This document shows, one piece after another, positions 2,024 through 44,215 of a stretch of DNA of 64,000 nucleotides. The notes below the pieces were generated by a model. The model worked only from the letters and a program-made list of their open reading frames with translations. It was not told the DNA's origin and did not search any database. How positions within the stretch are numbered: the stretch's first letter is position 1; every line of letters starts with the position of its first letter. The stretch is from Alphaproteobacteria bacterium (GTDB lineage: Bacteria; Pseudomonadota; Alphaproteobacteria; UBA9219; RGZA01): the NCBI GenBank assembly GCA_033762625.1, contig JANRLI010000011.1, positions 124,001 to 188,000 on the forward strand. Reading direction: 5' to 3'. The position numbers and the translations under genes are program-made.

Positions 2024-3370
2024 ATGGCATCCGCCGCAGAGCAACTAGCCTCTAACATCAATCTTGGTACCTTTGGTAAGGCAACTGAACTTAAGCAGCG
2101 CATTATGTTCACGCTGCTTGCGCTGATTGTTTACCGTCTTGGAACCTATATCCCTGTTCCGGGTATTGACCCTGTTGTATTGGAAGAATTCTTCCAGCAG
2201 CAATCGCGCGGTGTGCTTGGCATGGTTGATATTTTTGCTGGCGGCGCGCTTAGCCGTATGACGATTTTTGCACTCAGCATCATGCCGTATATTTCATCAT
2301 CGATTATCGTTCAATTGATGACCGCCGTACTTCCGCAACTGGAAGCCATGAAGAAGGAAGGTGAAGCTGGCCGTGCCAAGCTCAATCAATACACGCGCTA
2401 CCTCACAGTGTTCTTGGCGCTGATTCAATCTTATGCACTTGCAACAGGTCTTGAACACATGATGGGGCCATCTGGTCCTGCCGTGCCGGAAGCAGGTTTG
2501 CTATTCCGTCTAACAACCACTGTTACCTTAACGGCTGGCACATTGTTCTTGATGTGGCTTGGTGAACAAATCACCAGTCGCGGTATTGGTAACGGCACAT
2601 CGCTAATTATTTTCTCCAGCATCGTAGCGCGTATTCCATTCTCGATCGTGAATGCTTTGGAATTGGGACGTACAGGCGCGTTATCTGTTGGCGTAATTAT
2701 CCTGCTCATCATCATTATTCTGGCGGTGATTTATTTTGTGGTGTTTATGGAGCGCGCACAGCGCCGTGTATTGGTGCAATATCCAAAACGCCAAGTTGGC
2801 AATAAGGTCTATGGCGGTGAAGCAAGCCATTTGCCATTAAAGCTGAATTCCTCGGGCGTTATTCCGGCGATTTTCTCAAGCTCGCTCTTGCTCTTGCCAC
2901 TTACTGCTATTGGCTTCTTGGGCGCAGACGCATCATCGCCTTGGGCGCAGTGGATTTCACAGCATCTTGGCCATGGCAGCCCGCTGTTCATGTTCCTTTA
3001 TGCTGCACTGATTATCTTCTTCAGCTTTTTCTATACAGCGGTTGTGTTTAATCCCAAAGATACCGCTGATAATCTGAAGAAATATGGTGGCTTCATTCCG
3101 GGGATTCGCCCAGGTAACAACACCGCTGATTATCTTGATCATATTCTTACCCGTTTAACGGTTCTGGGCGCGATTTACATGGCGATTGTATGTTTGCTGC
3201 CAGAATTTTTGACGGCGGAATTTTCCATTCCATTCTACTTTGGCGGCACTAGCTTGTTGATTGTGGTGTCGGTAACCATGGATACGGTTGCGCGCATTCA
3301 ATCCCAGCTTTTGGCGCACCAATATGAAGGCCTAATCAAGAAAGCAAATCTCAAAGGAAAACGTAACTAA
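2024..3370 (+). CDS. secY: Protein translocase subunit SecY
   Basis: The protein has 448 residues with ten hydrophobic segments, the standard SecY length. The N-terminus NLGTFGKATELKQRI is followed by TM1 (LLALIVYRLGTYIPVPGID) and the plug region FAGGALSRMTIF. SecY forms the protein-conducting channel with SecE and SecG. I chose ATG 2024 because GAGGAA lies at 2015-2020; the open frame runs upstream to 1973 but without a ribosome site. The stop overlaps the adk start by one base (TAATG), indicating coupling. Confidence 0.97.
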   Translation: MASAAEQLASNINLGTFGKATELKQRIMFTLLALIVYRLGTYIPVPGIDPVVLEEFFQQQSRGVLGMVDIFAGGALSRMTIFALSIMPYISSSIIVQLMTAVLPQLEAMKKEGEAGRAKLNQYTRYLTVFLALIQSYALATGLEHMMGPSGPAVPEAGLLFRLTTTVTLTAGTLFLMWLGEQITSRGIGNGTSLIIFSSIVARIPFSIVNALELGRTGALSVGVIILLIIIILAVIYFVVFMERAQRRVLVQYPKRQVGNKVYGGEASHLPLKLNSSGVIPAIFSSSLLLLPLTAIGFLGADASSPWAQWISQHLGHGSPLFMFLYAALIIFFSFFYTAVVFNPKDTADNLKKYGGFIPGIRPGNNTADYLDHILTRLTVLGAIYMAIVCLLPEFLTAEFSIPFYFGGTSLLIVVSVTMDTVARIQSQLLAHQYEGLIKKANLKGKRN

Positions 3371-4035
3371 TGAGCGCAGCGGCAGAACCTATTATTTTAC
3401 TTGGACCCCCAGGCGCTGGTAAAGGCACGCAAGCCCGCCGCCTCGAAGAACACTATGGCCTGGTGCAGCTTTCAACAGGCGATGTATTGCGCGCTGCTGT
3501 AAAAGCCGGAACGCCATTAGGCCGTGAAGCCAAAACCTATATGGATGCAGGCAAGCTTGTTCCAGATGATTTGATTATCCGCCTCATTGAAGAATGGATG
3601 CAAAAGCCTGAAGCTAAAAAAGGCTTTATCCTTGATGGTTTCCCGCGCACCGTTCCGCAAGCCAAGGCGCTGGATGCGATGCTGCAAAAGCGCAGCATGA
3701 AGTTAAAAGCTGTCGTAGAAATGAAAGTGGATGACAAGGCTTTGGTAGAGCGCGTGTCAGGCCGTTTTAGTTGTGCAAAATGCGGCGAAGGTTATCATGA
3801 CAGCTTCAAGCCGCTGAAAAAAGCGGGCGAATGTGATAAGTGCCAAGGCAAGGAATTTGTTCGCCGCCCTGATGATAATGCGGAAACAATGAAGACACGC
3901 CTTGAAGCCTATCATGCGCAGACTGCGCCTATTATTCCATACTACCGCGACCAAGGTATTTTAGTGCAGGTAGATGGCATGGGCGAGATGAATGATGTCT
4001 ATGCCGAGATTAAAAGCGTTCTAAAACTTGCTTAG
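3370..4035 (+). CDS. adk: Adenylate kinase, zinc-LID type
   Basis: Adk converts AMP and ATP to two ADP in the cytoplasm. The 221-residue protein has the P-loop GPPGAGKGT at 12-20, DGFPRT in the core, and a LID domain with four cysteines (C135, C138, C155, C158) arranged as CxxC-N16-CxxC, a structural zinc site typical of the cysteine-LID class. Its position right after secY is the normal spc-operon order. The start overlaps the secY stop. Confidence 0.97.
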   Translation: MSAAAEPIILLGPPGAGKGTQARRLEEHYGLVQLSTGDVLRAAVKAGTPLGREAKTYMDAGKLVPDDLIIRLIEEWMQKPEAKKGFILDGFPRTVPQAKALDAMLQKRSMKLKAVVEMKVDDKALVERVSGRFSCAKCGEGYHDSFKPLKKAGECDKCQGKEFVRRPDDNAETMKTRLEAYHAQTAPIIPYYRDQGILVQVDGMGEMNDVYAEIKSVLKLA

Positions 4036-4165: not shown

Positions 4166-5422
4166 TTAGGCCTTTTTATCTTCTTCCAGATATTCCAGCG
4201 AACGGCCGAATGTTTCCGGCAATCTAGATAGTGCAATGAGTGGCAGGATATAGCTTCCTGCCCCTACCAGCATCACAGCATCCAGTAATGGCATATGGTC
4301 CTTGAGCGCGCTGAGCGCCATGGTCATGGGTACCACGGAAGCTCGCGCAAAGTTCGGAACCGCTGTTGCAACCGTTGCACGCAGGTTGGTGCCAAAGCTT
4401 TCGGCTGAAATCATCGTCATCAATACCCAGCCGCCAGCACCAAACGCCATGAACCCATAAATCAGTTTTACGTCCAGTTCGGATAATGGGCGCGGAAGAA
4501 ATAACAGGCCGAGTGAGCCGACAACCGAGATGATCACGAATAAAGCAAACACAGGTCTGCGGCGCTTCACGAGTTGGCATAATAAAATACTACAGAAATC
4601 CCCCAGTGGCAGGGCGATATTGCAATACACCATCAATATAGCGGTTGCGATAATCGGCAGTCCTGCGTTTGGTAAAATTTCCTGTGAAAATGTCATCAGA
4701 ATTCCAAGTACAAACCAGGTAGGAAGACCCAGCATCATGCACCAAAAAAAACGCATGAAGCGTTCGCGTGTTGCAAACAACAAGCGGATATCACCTTTAT
4801 TCGGGCAGTGCGCCACATTTTTAAAGATGTCGGATTCCATGATTTTCATACGGAACAGCAACAGCACCAAGCCCATGCCGCCACCAATCATGTAGCAGAC
4901 ACGCCATTCGAATAATTGCGCAGTCACGCCTGCAAATAATGCACCCGTAACACCCAGCGCCACCATAAAGCCGACACCAAGCCCGCGTTTTTCTTTGGAT
5001 AAAATTTCGGAAATCAATGTCGCGCCAAGGCCAAGTTCGCCCGATAAGCCAAAGCCCGAGAGAAAGCGGAATACAGCAAAGCTTTCTACATTTGTTACAA
5101 AGCCGTTTGCGAGTGTTGCCAGCGAATAAGTCAAAATGGAAATAAACATCACGCGTGTACGGCCCAATTTATCGCCCAGCATGCCAAATACCAATCCGCC
5201 AATAAGCATGCCAACCATCTGCAAATTCAAAAGCAGAATGCCGGTATCCATTTGTTTAGCATCAGGAACGCCTAAATCTTTTAAGGCAATAACGCGGCTG
5301 GCAGCAAAGACCCAGATGTCATAGACATCGACAAAATAGCCCAGCGTTGTGACTAAAATAGTCATAACAACAAACGGGTTCATTTTTTGATTTGCGGTAT
5401 TTTCCATGATTGGCGTGTTCAT
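4166..5422 (-). CDS. MFS transporter, metabolite:H+ symporter-like
   Basis: This 418-residue membrane protein has about 12 hydrophobic segments. Loop 2-3 carries the MFS signature GDKLGRTRVM, and TM4/5 contain GFGLSGELGLGATLISE, similar to the sugar/organic-acid transporter group. Substrate cannot be told from sequence. It is convergent to adk and separated by a large palindrome; it breaks the usual adk-rpsM order. Two starts are possible (5422, or ATG at 5407); neither has a strong ribosome site. It is probably monocistronic and divergent from the signalling module. Confidence 0.85.
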   Translation of the reverse strand: MNTPIMENTANQKMNPFVVMTILVTTLGYFVDVYDIWVFAASRVIALKDLGVPDAKQMDTGILLLNLQMVGMLIGGLVFGMLGDKLGRTRVMFISILTYSLATLANGFVTNVESFAVFRFLSGFGLSGELGLGATLISEILSKEKRGLGVGFMVALGVTGALFAGVTAQLFEWRVCYMIGGGMGLVLLLFRMKIMESDIFKNVAHCPNKGDIRLLFATRERFMRFFWCMMLGLPTWFVLGILMTFSQEILPNAGLPIIATAILMVYCNIALPLGDFCSILLCQLVKRRRPVFALFVIISVVGSLGLLFLPRPLSELDVKLIYGFMAFGAGGWVLMTMISAESFGTNLRATVATAVPNFARASVVPMTMALSALKDHMPLLDAVMLVGAGSYILPLIALSRLPETFGRSLEYLEEDKKA

Positions 5423-5569
5423 AATTAAAGTGAAACGAATAGATGTGTTAATAGAAAGCTAATAGAAGGCTGTCCTTAACCGCATGTCAATCCTTTCATG
5501 GCATGAATATGCAGTAATCATAAGACTTTTCTTTCATGTGCATCCTGTCTCCTTTAAGGATTTTTCGCC

Positions 5570-5995
5570 GTGCCCAGTGAACCGCAACCAAAAATATTGA
5601 TTGCCGACGACCATTTTTTAATTCGGCAATTTGTAAAGCGCACCTTAGTGGACTCCGGCATGGAGAATGTCGATATGGTCAATGATGGAAACGAAGCGAT
5701 TGAAGCCATCAATACATCCATCGAGAAGAAAGATTTATACGATATTGTGTTTTTGGATTGGAATATGCCGGTTATGGCCGGCATTGATGTGCTGTCATAT
5801 ATCCGCACCAAGCCTGTATATCAAAATTCGGCTGTCGTGATGTTTACAGCGGAGTCCGAAAAACAGAATATTATGAAGGCCATCAAGATGGGCGCGACAT
5901 CCTATATCTTGAAACCGATTGCGCCGATGGAACTGAATAAGAAAATCCGTGAAATCATGGACTGGCTGCAAGGCCGGCGTCTGGCAAAGGTATAG
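5570..5995 (+). CDS. Single-domain CheY-like response regulator
   Basis: The 141-residue protein is only a receiver domain: acidic pair D13-D14, phospho-acceptor D63 in LDWNMP, switch T93 (FTAES) and K115 (LKP). There is no DNA-binding or enzymatic output. The GTG start at 5570 has AAGGA at 5556-5560. It is followed 8 bases later by a CheX-like gene and then an HPt-containing kinase, suggesting a closed phosphotransfer circuit in which this receiver is the phosphorylated output or sink. It differs clearly from the flagellar cheY at 45889. Confidence 0.92.
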   Translation: MPSEPQPKILIADDHFLIRQFVKRTLVDSGMENVDMVNDGNEAIEAINTSIEKKDLYDIVFLDWNMPVMAGIDVLSYIRTKPVYQNSAVVMFTAESEKQNIMKAIKMGATSYILKPIAPMELNKKIREIMDWLQGRRLAKV

Positions 5996-6003
5996 GAGGG
6001 GTA

Positions 6004-6516
6004 ATGACAACCAATCCTCCTTCCAAGCCGCTGGCGCTCGCATTGGGCGACCAGCTTGCACAAGATTTTTCGCATGCAGTGGGCGATGCCTTTAGCAAAA
6101 CATTCGGTATTGAAGTAAAGACCGGCCGCTATTCGATTGGTGAAGGCGCCGTAAGCTTGACTGGCGATGTATCGGGCGTTGTTGGGTTTGTTCAGGAAAA
6201 GCTCGAGGGGACATTAACGGCTTGTTTTAATATGAAAACAATCCGTACTGTTTTACCAAGGTTATTAGGGGATGATATTGAAATCACGCAAGCAGTCGCG
6301 ATGGACGCGGTTGGCGAGATCACCAATATGATTTTTGGCCAGATAAAAACCGAATTGAATAAGCGTGGCCATCATGTGCGCTTTGGTATGCCAAGTGTTA
6401 TCAGCGGTGATGGGCATTTTATTTCGCAGCTTCATCAGGGCCGTTACATGATCATGAATTTCGAGTTGGAAGGCGGTGTGATTCAAATCCATATCGCCTT
6501 GCATCACGGGGTATAA
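6004..6516 (+). CDS. CheX/CheC-like phosphatase domain protein
   Basis: This 170-residue protein resembles CheX-family CheY-P phosphatases. The family signature E-x-x-N is present as E105/N108 in the helix DAVGEITNMIFG, followed by a FGMPSVISG strand. CheX/CheC proteins dephosphorylate receiver domains by inserting this helix into the active site. Being directly between a single-domain receiver and the kinase, its likely substrate is the 5570 regulator; that is inference from context. The stop is one base from the next start, so it is translationally coupled. Confidence 0.8.
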   Translation: MTTNPPSKPLALALGDQLAQDFSHAVGDAFSKTFGIEVKTGRYSIGEGAVSLTGDVSGVVGFVQEKLEGTLTACFNMKTIRTVLPRLLGDDIEITQAVAMDAVGEITNMIFGQIKTELNKRGHHVRFGMPSVISGDGHFISQLHQGRYMIMNFELEGGVIQIHIALHHGV

Positions 6517-6517
6517 G

Positions 6518-8218
6518 ATGATGTCGGAATTGCCCACATCTGATCGGACGCTGCGGCAGGTGGAAATTATCCATACCAGCCTTGCCGGATTATCGCTCAT
6601 TTGTATGGTATTATTGGCTGGGTTGTTGCTGCCAGTATTCGGCTTTAGCCATGTACGCTCACTTCCAGTTGCTGCGCTTATCTGTGTTATTGTGTGCGTG
6701 GGCGTTGGCTATCTTTATTTTATGAATTACTGCGCACACAAAATTGTCCTGGAACAGGCCCGTCTGACAGATGTACTCACAAACAGTTTAGGTCAAGGCT
6801 TTTTGACCTTTGACGCAAAAGGGATATGCGGGTCTGCCTATTCGCAGGCCTGTTGCACATTGTTAGAATGCGAAAAAATCCCCGGCAAAAAAATCGCCGA
6901 TTTATTGAATGTAAGTCAGGAAGGCCGCGCTGATTTTGATGAATGGCTTAGCATTCTATATATGCCTGACCATGCGCTTAGTTTTGAAGATGCGGCGCGG
7001 TTTATGCCCGACCAGTTGTTGCATGATAATGGACGTGTGGTTCATTTGGCTTATCGCCCAGTGAGGGATAAACAAAAGCGTCTTGTGTGCATCGTGATGA
7101 TTGCAACTGACAAGACCGAAGAAAAAGACGCCCAAAAACGTGTGGATACCGAACGGCAGTTTGTGGCGATGGTGTGCGCGATTTTTGCTGAAAAACAAAG
7201 CTTCATGTTGACGATGACCGAAATGAAAGAGATGGTCGAGCGTCTCACGCGTATTGATGCAACATTATTCAGCCCAGAATTTTTCCGTGATGTGCACACC
7301 CTTAAAGGTGCTGCGATGCATTTCAAGATGGAAGTGATGGGTGAAAAACTGCATGGGCTTGAAAACACATTGCGCCAATTGCAAAGCACGGTTGCAGAAA
7401 TAGGTATTAATTCTGAAGCTCACGAAGCGTTATCGCAGCATCGCGCTGAGGTGCAATTGGAATTCGGACGTATCCAGAATTCGTTGCGTGCAGTTCTGGG
7501 GAATGAGAATGACCGTGTGCAGGGTATCATCGAAGTAGATGAAGACAGCCTTTATGATTTCGGTAAATTGCTCAAGCAGCATAATGTATCGCCCGATGTA
7601 TATTATGCGTATCAAAATAATCTGTTATCCGTACCGCTGTTCACATTGCTGAAATCGCTGGATAGACAGATGTTGCCGCTGGCAGAAAAGCTGGAAAAGA
7701 AAGTTAAACCGATTATCTTCAGAGGCGAAGAAGTTCGCTTGCCTGCAAAACCCTTGCAGCATTGGCTTATGGCGCTTACGCACGTTGTTCATAATATCGT
7801 TGACCACGGTATTGAAGCGCCGATTACGCGTATGGCAAAGGGGAAAGACCCGCAAGGCCAGGTGACCATTGATGTAAAGAAAGTCACAGGAGATGATGGA
7901 CGAAAATGGGTAGAGATAGTTATTTCCGATGATGGTGCAGGTATTGACCCGAACCGCGTGCGTCAAAAACTGATGACGGCAGACCCAGAAGGCAGTTGGC
8001 GTTTTGATGATGATGAACATATCATCCAGCAATTATTGACTCATGAAGTTTCAACCCGCGATGAAATTAGCATGTTGTCAGGCCGTGGTGCCGGCATGTC
8101 TGCTGTTTATCAAGAGGTACTGCATTTGAAAGGTCAGGCCGTGTTACGTTCTGAAATGCATAAAGGTACCCGCCTTATCATGCGCCTGCCCGAAAGCCTG
8201 CTGACTGAGTTCAAGTAG
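6518..8218 (+). CDS. Membrane-anchored CheA-like kinase: 2 TM + PAS + HPt + HATPase, no CheW domain
   Basis: The 566-residue protein has two TM helices (about 21-41 and 49-69) and a PAS-like region (about 85-205). An HPt domain follows with the phosphorylatable histidine H260 in DVHTLKGAAMHF, then a linker and a CheA-type ATPase (N-box N426 in HNIVDHGIE, DDGAGID, GRGAGMSAV, GTRLIMRLP). Unlike chemotaxis CheA it stops after the ATPase and has no CheW-like domain, so it should not join receptor arrays. Likely partner is the receiver at 5570. It is the last gene before the rpsM promoter region. Confidence 0.85.
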   Translation: MMSELPTSDRTLRQVEIIHTSLAGLSLICMVLLAGLLLPVFGFSHVRSLPVAALICVIVCVGVGYLYFMNYCAHKIVLEQARLTDVLTNSLGQGFLTFDAKGICGSAYSQACCTLLECEKIPGKKIADLLNVSQEGRADFDEWLSILYMPDHALSFEDAARFMPDQLLHDNGRVVHLAYRPVRDKQKRLVCIVMIATDKTEEKDAQKRVDTERQFVAMVCAIFAEKQSFMLTMTEMKEMVERLTRIDATLFSPEFFRDVHTLKGAAMHFKMEVMGEKLHGLENTLRQLQSTVAEIGINSEAHEALSQHRAEVQLEFGRIQNSLRAVLGNENDRVQGIIEVDEDSLYDFGKLLKQHNVSPDVYYAYQNNLLSVPLFTLLKSLDRQMLPLAEKLEKKVKPIIFRGEEVRLPAKPLQHWLMALTHVVHNIVDHGIEAPITRMAKGKDPQGQVTIDVKKVTGDDGRKWVEIVISDDGAGIDPNRVRQKLMTADPEGSWRFDDDEHIIQQLLTHEVSTRDEISMLSGRGAGMSAVYQEVLHLKGQAVLRSEMHKGTRLIMRLPESLLTEFK

Positions 8219-8357
8219 GGCCAAAACCCGCTTTTCGCACACATATAATATGTATTTCCTCAAAACAGATGCTTTGGCCTTAGGGTGCTAAGCAAAAAAC
8301 CCTTAAAAATCAATCTGTTCATTCTGGCCTAAAGATTAAAGAGGGGTTAAAGCCAGC

Positions 8358-8388
8358 CCTTGACTCAACCCTGTCAAGGCCTTACTTT
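8358..8388 (+). promoter_or_regulatory. Probable promoter of rpsM-rpsK-rpoA-rplQ, with inverted repeat over -35
   Basis: TTGACT (8360-8365), a 17-base spacer and TACTTT (8383-8388) form a sigma-70-like promoter in the 338-base gap (8219-8556). A perfect 7-bp inverted repeat, CCTTGAC (8358-8364) with GTCAAGG (8373-8379), covers the -35 and could be an operator or a chance overlap. A second stem CGCCC (8390-8394)/GGGCG (8411-8415) lies around the expected start. The rest of the gap is AT-rich with no recognisable gene. Confidence 0.4.
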
Positions 8389-8556
8389 CCGCCCACAATT
8401 TTCTGAAAACGGGCGTGGCGTTTAAGACGTTTTTTTTCAGGGATATAGTTTTTACAAAAAAGCGCAACCGACTGGATGTGCCTGATTAAAGGGCGGATTT
8501 GGTGCGGCTTTTTTTGTTTTTGGTTTTTGAGTTTTTGTTTTCTTGAGGAGAAGCGC

Positions 8557-8937
8557 GTGGCTCGTATTGCTGGTGTCAACATACCTACAAATAAACCGGT
8601 ATGGATTTCGTTACGTTATATTTTCGGTGTGGGCCCTTTGCGTGCTCGCCAGATTTGCGATGCGCTCGCTATCCCTGATGCGAAGCGCGTGAACCAGTTG
8701 AGCGATAGCGAAATTTTGAAAATCCGCGAGTTCATTGATGCGAACTATAAAGTAGAAGGCGATCTTCGCCGCGACATCGCGATGAACATCAAACGCCTGA
8801 TGGATTTGGGTTGTTACCGCGGCTTGCGTCATCGCAAGGGATTACCGGTTCGTGGCCAACGTACACACACCAATGCGCGTACGCGTAAGGGCCCTGCGAA
8901 GCCAATCGCTGGTAAGAAAATCGCAACCAAGAAGTAA
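8557..8937 (+). CDS. rpsM: Small ribosomal subunit protein uS13
   Basis: The 126-residue S13 begins [15 protein letters not shown] and ends with the basic tail containing [18 protein letters not shown]. It contacts tRNA and bridges to the 50S subunit. The GTG start at 8557 is chosen because GAGGAG lies at 8545-8550; the frame is open 81 bases upstream but those residues are not S13-like. It is the first gene of the alpha operon here, separated from adk by a transporter and a signalling module. Confidence 0.97.
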
Positions 8938-8979
8938 TTGGCAAAAAATTATTAGTTTTACTATTTGAAGGACACGAAC

Positions 8980-9414
8980 ATGGCTGAACCAAAAAAAGCT
9001 GCAAAAAAAGAAGATGCAAAAGCACCTGCAGCAGGCGCACCGCGTACCAAACGCAAAGAACGCAAGAACATTGCTGTTGGTATTGCAAAGGTAAACTCTA
9101 CCTTTAACAATACACTGATTACGATTAGCGATGGTCAAGGCAACACCGTTGCATGGTCATCATCTGGCGTTGTGGGCTTTAAAGGCTCGCGCCGTTCAAC
9201 CCCATATGCTGCACAGATGGCTGCTGAAGACGCAGGTAAGAAGGCATTGGAACATGGCATGCGTTCACTTGAAGTTGAAGTGAAGGGTCCTGGTGCTGGC
9301 CGTGAGTCTGCATTACGCGCATTGCAGTCGGTTGGCTTCATTATCACCTCCATTAAGGATGTGACGCCAATTCCACACAATGGTGTTCGCCCGCCAAAAC
9401 GTCGCCGCGTATAA
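8980..9414 (+). CDS. rpsK: Small ribosomal subunit protein uS11
   Basis: The 144-residue S11 shows the conserved [16 protein letters not shown] start of the fold, [20 protein letters not shown] and the C-terminal [13 protein letters not shown]. It lies in the 30S platform. ATG 8980 has GAAGGA at 8967-8972; an in-frame TTG further upstream is disfavoured. The N-terminus carries an extra Lys/Ala-rich stretch of about 15 residues compared with the usual roughly 129-residue protein. Confidence 0.97.
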
Positions 9415-9477
9415 AAATACCCGCGTTTTGTGTTTAAAGAATTTTTGTTTTTACCCTGACCCATAAGGAATAACCGA

Positions 9478-10500
9478 ATGTCGCAGATGCTGCAGAAAAA
9501 CTGGAAGCAACTTATTCAAGCTAACAAGCAAATCGGACAAAGCGTTGATCTGACCCGTTTTGCAACCCTCACCGCAGAACCATTGGAACGCGGTTTTGGT
9601 ACCACCCTTGGTAACGCACTGCGCCGCGTATTGTTGTCATCGCTGCAAGGCGCTGCAGTAACCTCCATTCAAATTGATGGCGTGTTACACGAGTTTTCGT
9701 CTATCCCCGGTGTACGTGAAGACGTAACCGATATTGTTCTCAACATTAAGTCGCTCGCGCTTCGGATGCACAGCGAAGGCCCACGCAAGATGCGCCTTTC
9801 TGCTGAAGGCCCTGGTGAAGTTCGCGCAAAGGCAATCCAAACCGGTTCTGAAATTGAAATCATGAACCCTGAATTGGTGATCTGCACCCTTGATAACGGT
9901 GCAAAGCTCAACATTGAATTCACCGTTGAAACCGGCAAGGGTTATGTTCCTGCATCCCAAAACCGTAAGGAAGATTCACCAATCGGCCTGATCCCCATCG
10001 ATAGCCTTTACTCGCCAGCACGTAAGGTTTCTTTCAAGGTGGAAAACAGCCGTGTGGGTCAAGTAACCGACTATGACAAGCTTTCATTGCAAGTTGAAAC
10101 CAATGGTGCAATTGCTCCAGAAGATGCGGTGGCAATTGCTGCACGTATTCTGCAAGACCAGTTGCAATTGTTCATCAACTTCGAAGAGCCAAAAGCACAT
10201 ATCGCTGAAGCTGTTAAAGATGAATTCCCATTCAACAAGAACTTGCTACGCCGCGTGGACGAGCTCGAACTTTCCGTTCGTTCTGCAAACTGCCTCAAGA
10301 ACGACAACATCATCTACATTGGTGATTTGGTTCAAAAGTCAGAAGCAGAAATGCTCCGCACGCCAAACTTTGGCCGCAAGAGCTTGAACGAAATCAAGGA
10401 AGTGCTTGCACAAATGGGCCTGACCTTGGGTATGGAAGTGGCTGGTTGGCCACCTGAGAACATCGACGAATTACTCAAGAAGATGGAAGAGCCATACTAA
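9478..10500 (+). CDS. rpoA: RNA polymerase alpha subunit
   Basis: The 340-residue protein has the alpha N-terminal assembly domain ([36 protein letters not shown]) and the C-terminal helix-hairpin-helix domain ([32 protein letters not shown]) that contacts UP elements and activators. Length and order after rpsK are standard for alphaproteobacteria; rpsD is not here. The start ATG at 9478 has AAGGAA upstream. Confidence 0.98.
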
Positions 10501-10516
10501 GTCTAAGTAGTAAAAC

Positions 10517-10603
10517 GGGCCATGGTGGCCCACTGCTTTTGTACCATCATGTTTGTAAAATGAGTGGGCAAAGGCAAACACAATCGGTCTCCAGAATCTG
10601 GAG
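10517..10603 (+). promoter_or_regulatory. Two hairpins in the rpoA-rplQ leader
   Basis: The 130-base rpoA-rplQ gap holds GGGCCA-TGG-TGGCCC (10517-10531) and a 7-bp repeat CTCCAGA-A-TCTGGAG (10589-10603). The first is followed by a short T-run (ACTGCTTTTG) and could attenuate; the second lies about 28 bases before the rplQ start and could affect its translation or be an operator. Function is inference only. Confidence 0.35.
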
Positions 10604-10630
10604 CCAAGCGAAGAAAAAAGGAAGTGTACT

Positions 10631-11065
10631 ATGCGTCACGCAATGTCAGGTCGTAAATTAAACCGCACAGCAAGCCATCGCAAAGCGATGTTCTCCAACA
10701 TGGCGGCAAGTCTTATCAAACACGAACAAATCAAAACCACGCTTCCGAAGGCTAAAGAACTTCGCACCGTTGTGGAACGCCTTATCACGCTCGGCAAAAA
10801 GGGTGGCATGGCAAATCGTCGCCGCGCATTTGCTGTTTTGCGTGATGATGCAATGGTAACCAAGTTGTTTGATACTGTTGCAACGCGCTATGCGAAACGT
10901 GCAGGCGGCTATACGCGCGTATTGAAAGCTGGCTTCCGTTATGGCGATGCAGCTGCAGTTGCAATTATTGAATTGGTTGACCGCGATGTATCCGCAAAAG
11001 GTAAGGACAGCGGCCCAAATCCAAACGAAGAAGTATTGGATACCGTATCTGAAAAGGCTGCCTAA
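10631..11065 (+). CDS. rplQ: Large ribosomal subunit protein bL17
   Basis: The 144-residue protein starts [25 protein letters not shown], the hallmark of L17, and has the [21 protein letters not shown] core. The C-terminus carries about 20 extra acidic/polar residues, common in alphaproteobacterial L17. L17 lies near the peptide exit tunnel. It closes the alpha operon; the next start is one base beyond the stop. Confidence 0.97.
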
Positions 11066-11066
11066 G

Positions 11067-11390
11067 ATGCACGTTCAAGCAACAGAGCGGAAAACATTTT
11101 CAGCCGCTCTTTGCTTGTTCCTGAGCTTATCGCTTGGGGTTTGCTTGTTGTCCGGCTGCGCCTATTTACGTAGCCCAGACAGATCAACCGATAATATTGA
11201 AGTTCCTCATACATCGCCAACAACGGATACAAAGCGCGAAGCCTGTGTTCGCGCCTGTAATCAGGAGCGCGATATTTGCAGTGCTGGCCCTGAGTCGCGC
11301 AACACGGTGTTTGATGCACCAACAGCTGTGGTTGGAGCAAGCGCGGGGTGCGATAAATCCCTTCGCGATTGTCTGCGTTATTGCAAATAA
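11067..11390 (+). CDS. Small cysteine-rich lipoprotein, unknown function
   Basis: From ATG 11067 the product has 107 residues: a basic start, a hydrophobic segment and a lipobox LLSGC, so it is likely lipidated and secreted. After a Ser/Thr/Pro-rich linker, six further cysteines follow (ACVRAC, DICSAG, GCDK, DCLRYC), which could form disulfides in the periplasm. The frame is open into rplQ, but that part is a shadow. I recognise no family. It starts one base after the rplQ stop and is followed by an SMR exporter. Confidence 0.7.
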   Translation: MHVQATERKTFSAALCLFLSLSLGVCLLSGCAYLRSPDRSTDNIEVPHTSPTTDTKREACVRACNQERDICSAGPESRNTVFDAPTAVVGASAGCDKSLRDCLRYCK

Positions 11391-11400
11391 GGGTTAGTGC

Positions 11401-11733
11401 ATGGCATGGGTTTATCTCATTCTTGCAGGGCTTTGCGAAGTGGCATGGATTGTCACACTCAAACTCAATGACGGATTCACTAAACTAATCCCAAGCCTTA
11501 TTGCGCTGGTCTTTATTCTGGCTAGCCCGTTCTTTGCGTCACTTGCCATGAAATCGCTCGGTATTGGCACTGGCTATACAGTATGGATAGGTGTGAATTG
11601 TGTCCTTCTTACACTGCTTAGCACGTTCTATTTTAATGAGCCGATTACATGGCAAAAAATCCTTTGTATTTCACTTATCATTGCGGGGGCTGTGGGCCTA
11701 AAACTGATTGAAGGGGGTATTATCAAGTCCTGA
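11401..11733 (+). CDS. SMR-family exporter, Gdx/SugE-like
   Basis: The 110-residue protein has four TM helices and the essential membrane glutamate E13 in GLCEVAW. LKLNDGFTKLIPS resembles the Gdx (SugE) subgroup, which exports guanidinium in exchange for protons as an antiparallel dimer, rather than the Qac subgroup. I see no guanidine riboswitch upstream; the gap to the preceding lipoprotein is only 10 bases, so the two may share a transcript. The subgroup call is tentative. Confidence 0.82.
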   Translation: MAWVYLILAGLCEVAWIVTLKLNDGFTKLIPSLIALVFILASPFFASLAMKSLGIGTGYTVWIGVNCVLLTLLSTFYFNEPITWQKILCISLIIAGAVGLKLIEGGIIKS

Positions 11734-11820
11734 ACGTGGTAGTGATATGCCAAATTCTTGCCCAACTTCTTGCTCATATCTTGGGGTGCTCTATATTATC
11801 CTGATGGATGGAGGCTCCCT

Positions 11821-13239
11821 TTGACCCGGCTTTTTTCTAATTTGCTTTTCGTTGTTTCAATCATGATGGCTGCGCCGGTTTTGGCAGCAGATGATGCGCC
11901 GCGCATCCCTACAAGCAAGCAAGACATTGCCATTAGTTTTTCGCCTGTAATCAAACGTGTGGCGCCCGCAGTCGTAAATATCTATACGCGCACATTAGTA
12001 CGCCAGCGCATGATGATATCGCCGTTTATGAACGATCCGCTGTTTCGCCAGTTTTTTGGTGACCAAATGCCACAAGGTTTGACCCAAAAGCGCGTACAAA
12101 ATTCGTTGGGTTCAGGCGTGATGGTTGGCGAAAACGGAATTGTCGTAACCAATAACCATGTCATTGAAGGCGCTGACCAGATTACAGTTGTGCTTTCCGA
12201 CCGCCGCGAATTTGAAGCATCGATTATTACCGATGACAAACGCAGCGATCTGGCAGTTTTAAAATTGAAAACCAAAGGCGAAACTTTTCCAACGCTAACT
12301 CTGGCTGATAGTGATGATGCGGAAGTAGGCGATGTGGTATTGGCAATAGGCAATCCGTTCGGGGTCGGGCAAACCGTAACCATGGGAATCATTTCTGCGG
12401 TTGCGCGCGCGGCAGAAGTAAGTAGTAGCGATTATAATTATTTCATTCAAACCGATGCGGCGATTAACCCAGGCAATTCGGGAGGCGCGCTGATAACGGC
12501 GGATGGTAAACTCGTGGGTATTCCTTCTGCCATTTATTCAAAAGATGGAGGCTCGCTAGGTATTGGCTTTGCTATTCCATCAAACCTTGTCCGTACGGTT
12601 ATTGCATCCGCAAGTCAGGGCGGGACAGTGGTGCGCGGCTGGCTTGGTATTTCCGTACAGGCGCTTAATAGCGAGATTGCACAAAGCGTAGGACTTAACC
12701 ATCCCACAGGCGTGATCGTGCGCAAAATTCACAAGCAAAGCCCGGCGCTGGATGCAGGGTTAAAAATTGGTGATGTTATTTTGGCAATTAACGGCAAGGA
12801 AATCACCGATGAGGAAGGTTTGCGTTACCGCACAGCAACAGCGGCGGTTGATACATCACTGACCTTCAGCATCATGCGCAAGCAGGAAAAACAGGATATC
12901 ACAGTCAAAATTTCACCGCCGCCAAAAGAAACAATAAAAAGTGAAACGACGTTAACAGGCGATACACCATTGTCCGGCGCCAGGGTTGTTAATCCATCGC
13001 CTGCGTTAACGCAAGACCTTGGTCTCCCGGATGATATTGAAGGCGTGATTGTGCTTGGCACGAGCAAGGGCAGTGTGGCTGCGCGTTTGGGACTTCAGCG
13101 TGGTGATCTGATTATCGGCATCAATAATAATGAAATAAAGTCAGTGAGCGATATTCAGACTGCATTAAATGCCCCTGCGTCAGCATGGAAAATCAGCATT
13201 AACCGCGGTGGTAATGTCATAACAGTAGTGGTGAGATGA
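11821..13239 (+). CDS. Periplasmic trypsin-like protease with two PDZ domains (DegP/HtrA family)
   Basis: From TTG 11821 (GGAGG at 11810-11814) the product is 472 residues and starts with a clear signal peptide ending AAPVLAADD. The protease domain has the triad H113 (NNHVIEG), D143 (RSDLAVLKL) and S220 (NPGNSGGAL). Two PDZ domains follow (about 260-350 and 380-470). Such enzymes degrade misfolded envelope proteins. The open frame starts at 11758, but the upstream part has no ribosome site and would bury the signal peptide. The 3' end overlaps rarA. Confidence 0.93.
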   Translation: MTRLFSNLLFVVSIMMAAPVLAADDAPRIPTSKQDIAISFSPVIKRVAPAVVNIYTRTLVRQRMMISPFMNDPLFRQFFGDQMPQGLTQKRVQNSLGSGVMVGENGIVVTNNHVIEGADQITVVLSDRREFEASIITDDKRSDLAVLKLKTKGETFPTLTLADSDDAEVGDVVLAIGNPFGVGQTVTMGIISAVARAAEVSSSDYNYFIQTDAAINPGNSGGALITADGKLVGIPSAIYSKDGGSLGIGFAIPSNLVRTVIASASQGGTVVRGWLGISVQALNSEIAQSVGLNHPTGVIVRKIHKQSPALDAGLKIGDVILAINGKEITDEEGLRYRTATAAVDTSLTFSIMRKQEKQDITVKISPPPKETIKSETTLTGDTPLSGARVVNPSPALTQDLGLPDDIEGVIVLGTSKGSVAARLGLQRGDLIIGINNNEIKSVSDIQTALNAPASAWKISINRGGNVITVVVR

Positions 13240-43102: not shown

Positions 43103-44215
43103 GTGACGCCTGCTGATGATAAACCACCTGGTGGTGAACAAATGAGCGAAGAAGAACGCATGGCCGCCGAATGGGCTGCCATGTCGGGTGATGGCGCTGC
43201 TGCGCCTGCCGGCGGAGATGATATGGCCGCCGCGATGGCTGATATGGGCGGCGATACCCGTGTCTTAAGCCAGAATGAAATCGACAGCTTGCTGGGTTTT
43301 GGCGGCGCGGATGATGGCGATGAAAACAAAGGCATCATGGCGCTGGTTAACTCCGCGCTTGTGAACTATGAACGCTTGCCGATGCTCGAAGTGGTCTTTG
43401 ACCGCTTGGTGCGTATGATGTCCACATCGCTTCGCAACTTCACATCTGACAACGTAGAAGTCAGCCTTGACCAAATCTCGTCGGTACGTTTTGGCGATTA
43501 TCTAAATTCTATCCCATTGCCTGCGATGCTTGCCGTATTTAAGGCCGAAGAGTGGGATAATTTCGGGTTGATGGTCGTTGATAGCGCAATGATTTATTCG
43601 ATTGTTGACGTGCTTCTGGGCGGCCGTCGCGGTACGGCAGCAATGCGTATTGAAGGCCGTCCCTATACAACCATTGAACGTAATCTTGTGGAACGTCTTG
43701 TGCATGTGATATTGGCGGATATGAGCGGTTCGTTTGACCCGCTATCGCAAGTAAACTTCCGTTTTGATCGTCTTGAAACCAACCCTCGCTTTGCAACGAT
43801 AGCACGACCTGCCAATGCTGCGGTGCTCGTCAAGCTGCGCATTGATATGGAAGATCGTGGCGGCTGTCTTGAAATCATTATTCCTTATGCGACGCTTGAG
43901 CCGGTTCGTGAACTGCTTTTGCAGATGTTCATGGGTGAAAAGTTCGGACGTGATTCCATCTGGGAAACTCACTTGGGTAATGAATTACTCACCACGGATA
44001 TGAGCATGCATGCGGTCTTGGATGAAATGACCATGCCGCTTTATGATATTTTGAATATGAAACCTGGAACCTTCGTGCCACTCAACGTGAAGCCCGACAG
44101 TATGGTGGAATTGCGCAGCGGTGAAGTATCCTTATTCAAAGGGCGCATGGGCAGCAAGAATGGCCGTATTGCCGTGATGATTGAAGAAGAAAAAATCAAG
44201 CGTCCCGGAGAATAA
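43103..44215 (+). CDS. fliM: Flagellar motor switch protein FliM
   Basis: FliM is the C-ring protein that binds CheY-P. The 370-residue protein carries the N-terminal CheY-binding peptide (VLSQNEIDSLLGF, about residue 53), the CheC-like middle (NYERLPMLEVVFDRLVRMMSTSLRNF, abridged; GSFDPL) and a C-terminal SpoA domain (MKPGTFVPLNVKPDSMVELRSG, abridged). The start is GTG 43103; ATG 43142 is an alternative. The Gly/Ala/Asp-rich N-terminal 50 residues are extra compared with enteric FliM. Confidence 0.95.
   Translation: MTPADDKPPGGEQMSEEERMAAEWAAMSGDGAAAPAGGDDMAAAMADMGGDTRVLSQNEIDSLLGFGGADDGDENKGIMALVNSALVNYERLPMLEVVFDRLVRMMSTSLRNFTSDNVEVSLDQISSVRFGDYLNSIPLPAMLAVFKAEEWDNFGLMVVDSAMIYSIVDVLLGGRRGTAAMRIEGRPYTTIERNLVERLVHVILADMSGSFDPLSQVNFRFDRLETNPRFATIARPANAAVLVKLRIDMEDRGGCLEIIIPYATLEPVRELLLQMFMGEKFGRDSIWETHLGNELLTTDMSMHAVLDEMTMPLYDILNMKPGTFVPLNVKPDSMVELRSGEVSLFKGRMGSKNGRIAVMIEEEKIKRPGE

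Follow-up and report, generated by a model that had tools for sequence, protein, structure and literature searches.

A predicted receptor-free circuit of a receiver, a CheX-family phosphatase and a membrane HPt kinase, inserted between adk and rpsM across an order of Alphaproteobacteria

The window, by which we mean the whole 64,000 nt stretch of DNA analysed, comes from an alphaproteobacterial genome of 2.23 Mb in 26 contigs. Three genes lie close together on its forward strand, encoding a single-domain, CheY-like receiver (5570..5995, +; 141 aa, with a GTG start), a CheX-family phosphatase (6004..6516, +; 170 aa) and a membrane kinase (6518..8218, +; 566 aa), with gaps of only 8 bp between the first two genes and 1 bp between the last two. 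The open reading frames and Pfam matches agree with the preliminary description of the locus, which had named a stand-alone receiver, a CheX protein with an ExxN motif and a membrane HPt/HATPase kinase. The sole Pfam domain of the receiver is PF00072 (Response_reg, 2.3e-27); all the active site residues (DD, D, T and K) are present, no output domain is attached, and the best NCBIfam match is to CheY, below the equivalog cut-off of that family. CheX exceeds the cut-off for PF13690 (2.1e-17), its ExxN motif being E105-x-T-N108, and its matches to PDB CheX profiles include 1xko, 1squ and 3hzh. In the kinase, the ATPase domain matches PF02518 (HATPase_c, 6e-13), and the HPt domain falls slightly under the Pfam cut-off for PF01627 (9.9e-5), yet has an invariant HTxK motif.

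The kinase begins with two transmembrane helices (residues ~15-73), followed by a cytoplasmic PAS domain (~93-198), the HPt domain containing His260 (~226-327), a pair of short P3-like helices (~342-391) and a CheA P4-type ATPase (~400-560). The same succession of transmembrane hairpin, PAS domain, HPt bundle, two helices and ATPase is found in the AlphaFold2 model, which has a mean pLDDT of 80.9. The P4 region matches CheA entries in the PDB by sequence, with E about 1e-41, and the model aligns to CheA P4 and P3P4 structures with a VIA-align Z of about 20 (for 8c5v, Z 20.7 over 216 residues at 3.3 A). Residues 340-566 of the model align with CheA 266-511, with P3 shortened and the Pfam H-kinase_dim family unmatched; the kinase has no P5/CheW domain, there being no PF01584 match and the modelled protein stopping after P4. 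Folded alone, the PAS domain resembles other PAS domains with Z scores of 10-11; the comparison with WalK 9a5d, an integrative model, gave Z 11.5, and that with FixL 1dp6 gave Z 10.4 at 3.9 A. A histidine in this domain, H152, is nearly invariant, and the binding of heme or another ligand here is offered only as a suggestion. Some twelve residues make up the loop joining the transmembrane helices, too few for a periplasmic sensor domain, so that envelope sensing through such a domain is not supported; the cytoplasmic PAS is the only sensor-like domain.

Orthologue alignments of 25-26 sequences were assembled for each of the three proteins. D13, D14, D63, T93, Y112 and K115 of the receiver are invariant in 26 sequences, as are the ExxN residues E105 and N108 of CheX in 25, and, amongst 25-26 relatives of the kinase, H260 (the histidine of HTxK), N426, the DDGxGID motif at 471-477 and the GxG motif at 524-526. 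When compared with the nearest relative, genome G002, the dN/dS ratios were 0.037 for the receiver, 0.026 for CheX and 0.027 for the kinase. Conservation of this kind points to three working genes under strong purifying selection.

To the left of the module lies adk (3370..4035, +), an ORF forming the last gene of an spc-type ribosomal operon, which adjoins rpsM in outgroups and is the ancestral left neighbour; the ancestral right neighbour is rpsM itself (8557..8937, +). Outgroup genomes bear out the expectation that adk normally stands directly before rpsM in other alphaproteobacteria: the two are within about 270 bp of each other in 26 of 29 outgroup loci and about 1 kb apart in two, with adk unseen in the last, and the trio is found between them in none of the 29. 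The trio had been described as an insert at this point, and its position is as stated, but an MFS transporter gene (4166..5422, -; PF07690, 6e-26) has been inserted between adk and the receiver as well, and this had been missed. The transporter is found only in L035 and L036, two loci of the same genus, and is missing from the other syntenic loci, marking it as a genus-specific insert outside the conserved module. The right border of the insertion is an element before rpsM that resembles the alpha-operon leader (8482..8589, +); its match to RF00140, the alpha-operon ribosome binding site (28.7 bits, E 9e-4), is below the gathering threshold of 38. This sub-threshold match to the leader was found here in an alphaproteobacterium.

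Within the order, the gene order adk-[MFS]-receiver-CheX-kinase-rpsM was present in 11 loci that could be read across both borders. The three genes of the trio follow one another at short distances in nearly all relatives. The trio is mostly upstream of rpsM, often directly after adk, with several loci keeping the rpsM side only; it is detached from rpsM in six (L044, L045, L054, L058, L059 and L061), the last of which, from genome G009, has the trio (7970-13123) beside ftsZ. This arrangement is derived: the trio was inserted long ago where two ribosomal operons meet and has become fixed throughout the order, and the idea that the insertion is peculiar to the source genome was not confirmed. 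No receptor, CheW or CheR/B gene is found near the trio, and the CheA/CheW cluster of this genome is on another contig; the earlier view that this is not a classic chemotaxis operon is thus correct.

A kinase orthologue, either full length or cut by a contig end, was detected in 31 of the 33 genomes of the order; of the other two, G022 was matched only by the PAS region of another kinase, and no orthologue was found in G030, which is 69% complete. CheX is present in 29 of the 33 and in all 15 genera; it is found in all 21 genomes of good quality, and so offers a clean marker. Only eight of 240 genomes from the class at large have it. Long matches to the kinase outside the order were limited to G249, amongst 385 genomes of the class, and G415 in a sample of the phylum. 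The order comprises at least 33 species from three families, and the trio goes back to its ancestor; since nearly every member carries it, this is an old conserved circuit rather than a recent insertion. The same distribution led us to reject capture from outside, and it argues against the local capture of an independent loop that had been envisaged. A comparison of neighbourhoods found the module to be common in close relatives, which also goes against the preliminary description, and no known function for it was found. As regards a plasmid source, the kinase of a FIST-type relative (L131) was unmatched in a plasmid collection. In the kinase tree, the sequences of the order form a single group, which the receiver tree recovers weakly. 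The CheX tree places an outside sequence with a very long branch (L168) within this core, and long branches blur the deep relations to the FIST versions described below.

A conserved element (5476..5508, +) begins 94 nt before the start of the receiver gene. Its consensus in the order is TTAACCaTrCGGCAAkrwTTTTrTGgcAA, around 30 bp long, and 26 of the 28 upstream regions contain it, 77-203 nt ahead of the receiver gene, with a weak copy in L041. The element contains 37.4 bits of information over 32 columns, a figure somewhat inflated by the choice of register on TTAAC, with 2.3 and 0.9 bits in the flanks. Scanning with a weight matrix revealed no other site scoring above 8 bits in the window, and none above 14 bits in the other scanned loci. 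A pattern search of the 33 genomes, allowing up to two mismatches, gave 22 matches in 21 genomes, 20 of which were at the module; the remaining two were at contig ends (G012:C18, where the same sequence appears again, and G025:C108), and the reversed pattern gave no matches in the same genomes. The copy in the window is too diverged for this pattern, and was detected by the weight matrix. The element is essentially single-copy in each genome, at the module, and it also travels with relocated modules, such as those at L054 and L058. One part of it, TTAACCAT, recalls what we take to be a CtrA half-site. A CtrA-type or general promoter was nevertheless rejected, because the full element is present only at the module, which leaves a regulon unsupported. 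There was no match to the element in Rfam, a sigma-70 scan detected no promoter there, and by eye it does not fit the sigma-54 or sigma-28 consensus.

Similar combinations of genes are found at other loci. L066 has a diverged receiver, CheX, a FIST protein and a kinase together (6766-10775), with the FIST gene between those for CheX and the kinase, and L067, cut by a contig end, retains a CheX fragment, FIST and kinase. L068 has a diverged receiver, CheX and kinase, and the stretch read there shows no intervening FIST gene, whilst a full receiver-CheX-FIST-kinase set is found outside the order at L131 (7288-11301). At L069, a receiver and CheX-like protein accompany a larger PAS kinase without FIST; an ORF adjoining this cluster (L069:7346-7765) resembles, by eye, a hemerythrin-type protein. 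In another class of the phylum, L168 (8091-12395) has adjacent genes for CheX, a receiver and an HPt/HATPase kinase with four PAS domains. The PAS domain of the window kinase is also seen in HisKA hybrid kinases adjoining FIST proteins (L132 and L133). FIST proteins were found in six of the 33 genomes of the order, and not in that of the window (G000). The recurrence of a receiver, CheX and HPt/HATPase kinase with either FIST or a PAS array indicates that the trio behaves as a unit, and the window version appears to be one form of a three-part circuit that recurs with different, exchangeable inputs. No published description of the circuit was found in the literature examined, which is not proof of its absence. 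Hence the suggestion of an undescribed signalling system holds in that the kinase, receiver and phosphatase form a self-contained circuit with no function found in that literature, and has to be qualified in that this is a variant of a more widespread design; the circuit is apparently undescribed, whereas chemistry of the CheA/CheY/CheX kind is already known.

The reading we favour, with a probability of roughly 0.55, is a receptor-free circuit of three proteins in which the flagellar switch is the most likely target of the phosphorylated receiver. That the kinase phosphorylates the receiver and CheX dephosphorylates it is likely, judging from their domains and conserved residues. Through its cytoplasmic PAS domain and transmembrane hairpin, the kinase would detect a cue arising inside the cell or close to the membrane, whereupon the CheA-type ATPase would drive autophosphorylation of His260 in its own HPt domain, and the phosphoryl group would pass to Asp63 of the co-encoded receiver. 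CheX would then reset the receiver, since no HPt kinase like CheA is known to act as a phosphatase of its regulator. The kinase would in this way combine the receptor array, CheW and CheA in one protein, and the phosphorylated receiver would act through protein contact, FliM being the single likeliest target, so as to give receptor-independent control of swimming.

The proposal that the motor, through FliM, is the output is tentative. The receiver retains the CheY-type residues W64, T93, Y112 (equivalent to Y106) and K115, and FliM is encoded in 30 of the 33 genomes of the order. The LSQxEIDxLL peptide was seen in the FliM proteins of the window, of G009 and of five others; bacterial FliM proteins in general conserve it, and finding it here says little for a motor output. 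It is the FliM peptide bound by CheY and Cle proteins (PMC5677366). In the FliM gene of the window (43103-44215), it reads LSQNEIDSLL and follows a long N-terminal extension rich in acidic residues and alanine. Genome G009 (99% complete) encodes FliM and the trio, with no match to CheW or an MCP and none to a second CheA-type kinase, a gene content that fits an input to the motor without receptors. It is a draft MAG, however: the reading frame of its kinase is broken near position 9320 of L061, and the absent che genes may be assembly gaps. Counting against a motor output, a separate chemotaxis CheY in the window genome already provides the motor with an input, and receivers of the single-domain type frequently target kinases or other partners instead.

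Nearly as likely as the motor is that, with the same wiring, the receiver serves as a contact hub for some other target, such as a kinase, cell cycle or polarity proteins, pili or adhesion, in the manner of DivK or MrrA. It has no output domain, and its conserved surface and the basic tail following an invariant tryptophan are unexplained by CheY function alone; the MrrA study (PMC5964349) provides a precedent, in that hubs for stress and development are included amongst alphaproteobacterial single-domain regulators. However, the receiver is closer to CheY than to other regulators and keeps the Y106 equivalent, and the order is almost uniformly flagellated. It is improbable that CheX mainly dephosphorylates the CheY encoded in the che cluster elsewhere in the genome, with the kinase and receiver forming a side input: whilst most genomes of the order show no second CheX match, and CheW and MCPs are present in most of them, the gene adjoins the trio's receiver and kinase rather than the che cluster, is kept in G009, where CheW and MCPs were undetected, and has paralogues that likewise sit with paralogous receivers and kinases.

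Less probable still, with or without a connection to growth or ribosome production, is the original suggestion of an envelope-sensing loop captured locally beside translation genes. The placement at the junction of the spc and alpha operons and the two transmembrane helices are in its favour, whereas the order-wide distribution, purifying selection and absence of a periplasmic domain are not. A link to translation is likewise not supported, the module being kept without adk or rpsM flanks, with one copy having moved beside ftsZ, and retaining its own upstream element where it lies elsewhere.

Returning to the favoured reading of a receptor-free circuit acting on the flagellar switch, its strongest form is doubtful: that a membrane PAS kinase of CheA descent, with its CheY and CheX partners and under its own single-copy cis element, steers the motor in parallel with the receptor-CheW-CheA pathway and, in at least one species, replaces it. 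The circuit as such would be a case of CheA-type chemistry freed from receptor arrays, in a compact sensor-kinase with a dedicated phosphatase that a whole order has retained. The trio provides a testable model for signal input without chemoreceptors, and the FIST and PAS-array versions a natural series for studying how one input replaces another on kinases of this type.

Amongst known systems, the CheX proteins of T. maritima and Borrelia belong to the same family and share the ExxN motif, the window CheX being homologous to 1xko, 1squ and the CheX chain of 3hzh; it differs in being paired with a kinase that is not CheA, outside any chemotaxis cluster. The receiver is, like the Cle regulators of Caulobacter, an alphaproteobacterial CheY-like protein with FliM as its proposed target, and differs in keeping all the phospho-switch residues. 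The signature of Cle proteins is an arginine-rich tandem motif, [YF]xGP[DE][RK]R (PMC5677366), which is not found in the tail of the receiver (WLQGRRLAKV / W-KRKR). The NosP-NosK/NahK systems, which consist of a FIST sensor, a kinase and a regulator and respond to nitric oxide, are resembled by the paralogous clusters, in which FIST separates CheX from a kinase of the family described here, and the PAS domain of the window kinase is shared with kinases that partner FIST proteins. The window genome is without FIST, however, and its kinase is membrane-anchored and of the HPt type, whereas NosK is a DHp-CA kinase without a recognised sensory domain (PMC12570481). CheA itself is matched by the kinase in the HPt (P1) domain and the P4-type ATPase, between which lies a shortened helical pair that may correspond to P3; the kinase differs from it in having no P5/CheW domain and no recognised P2, with its own transmembrane helices and PAS domain taking the place of receptors.
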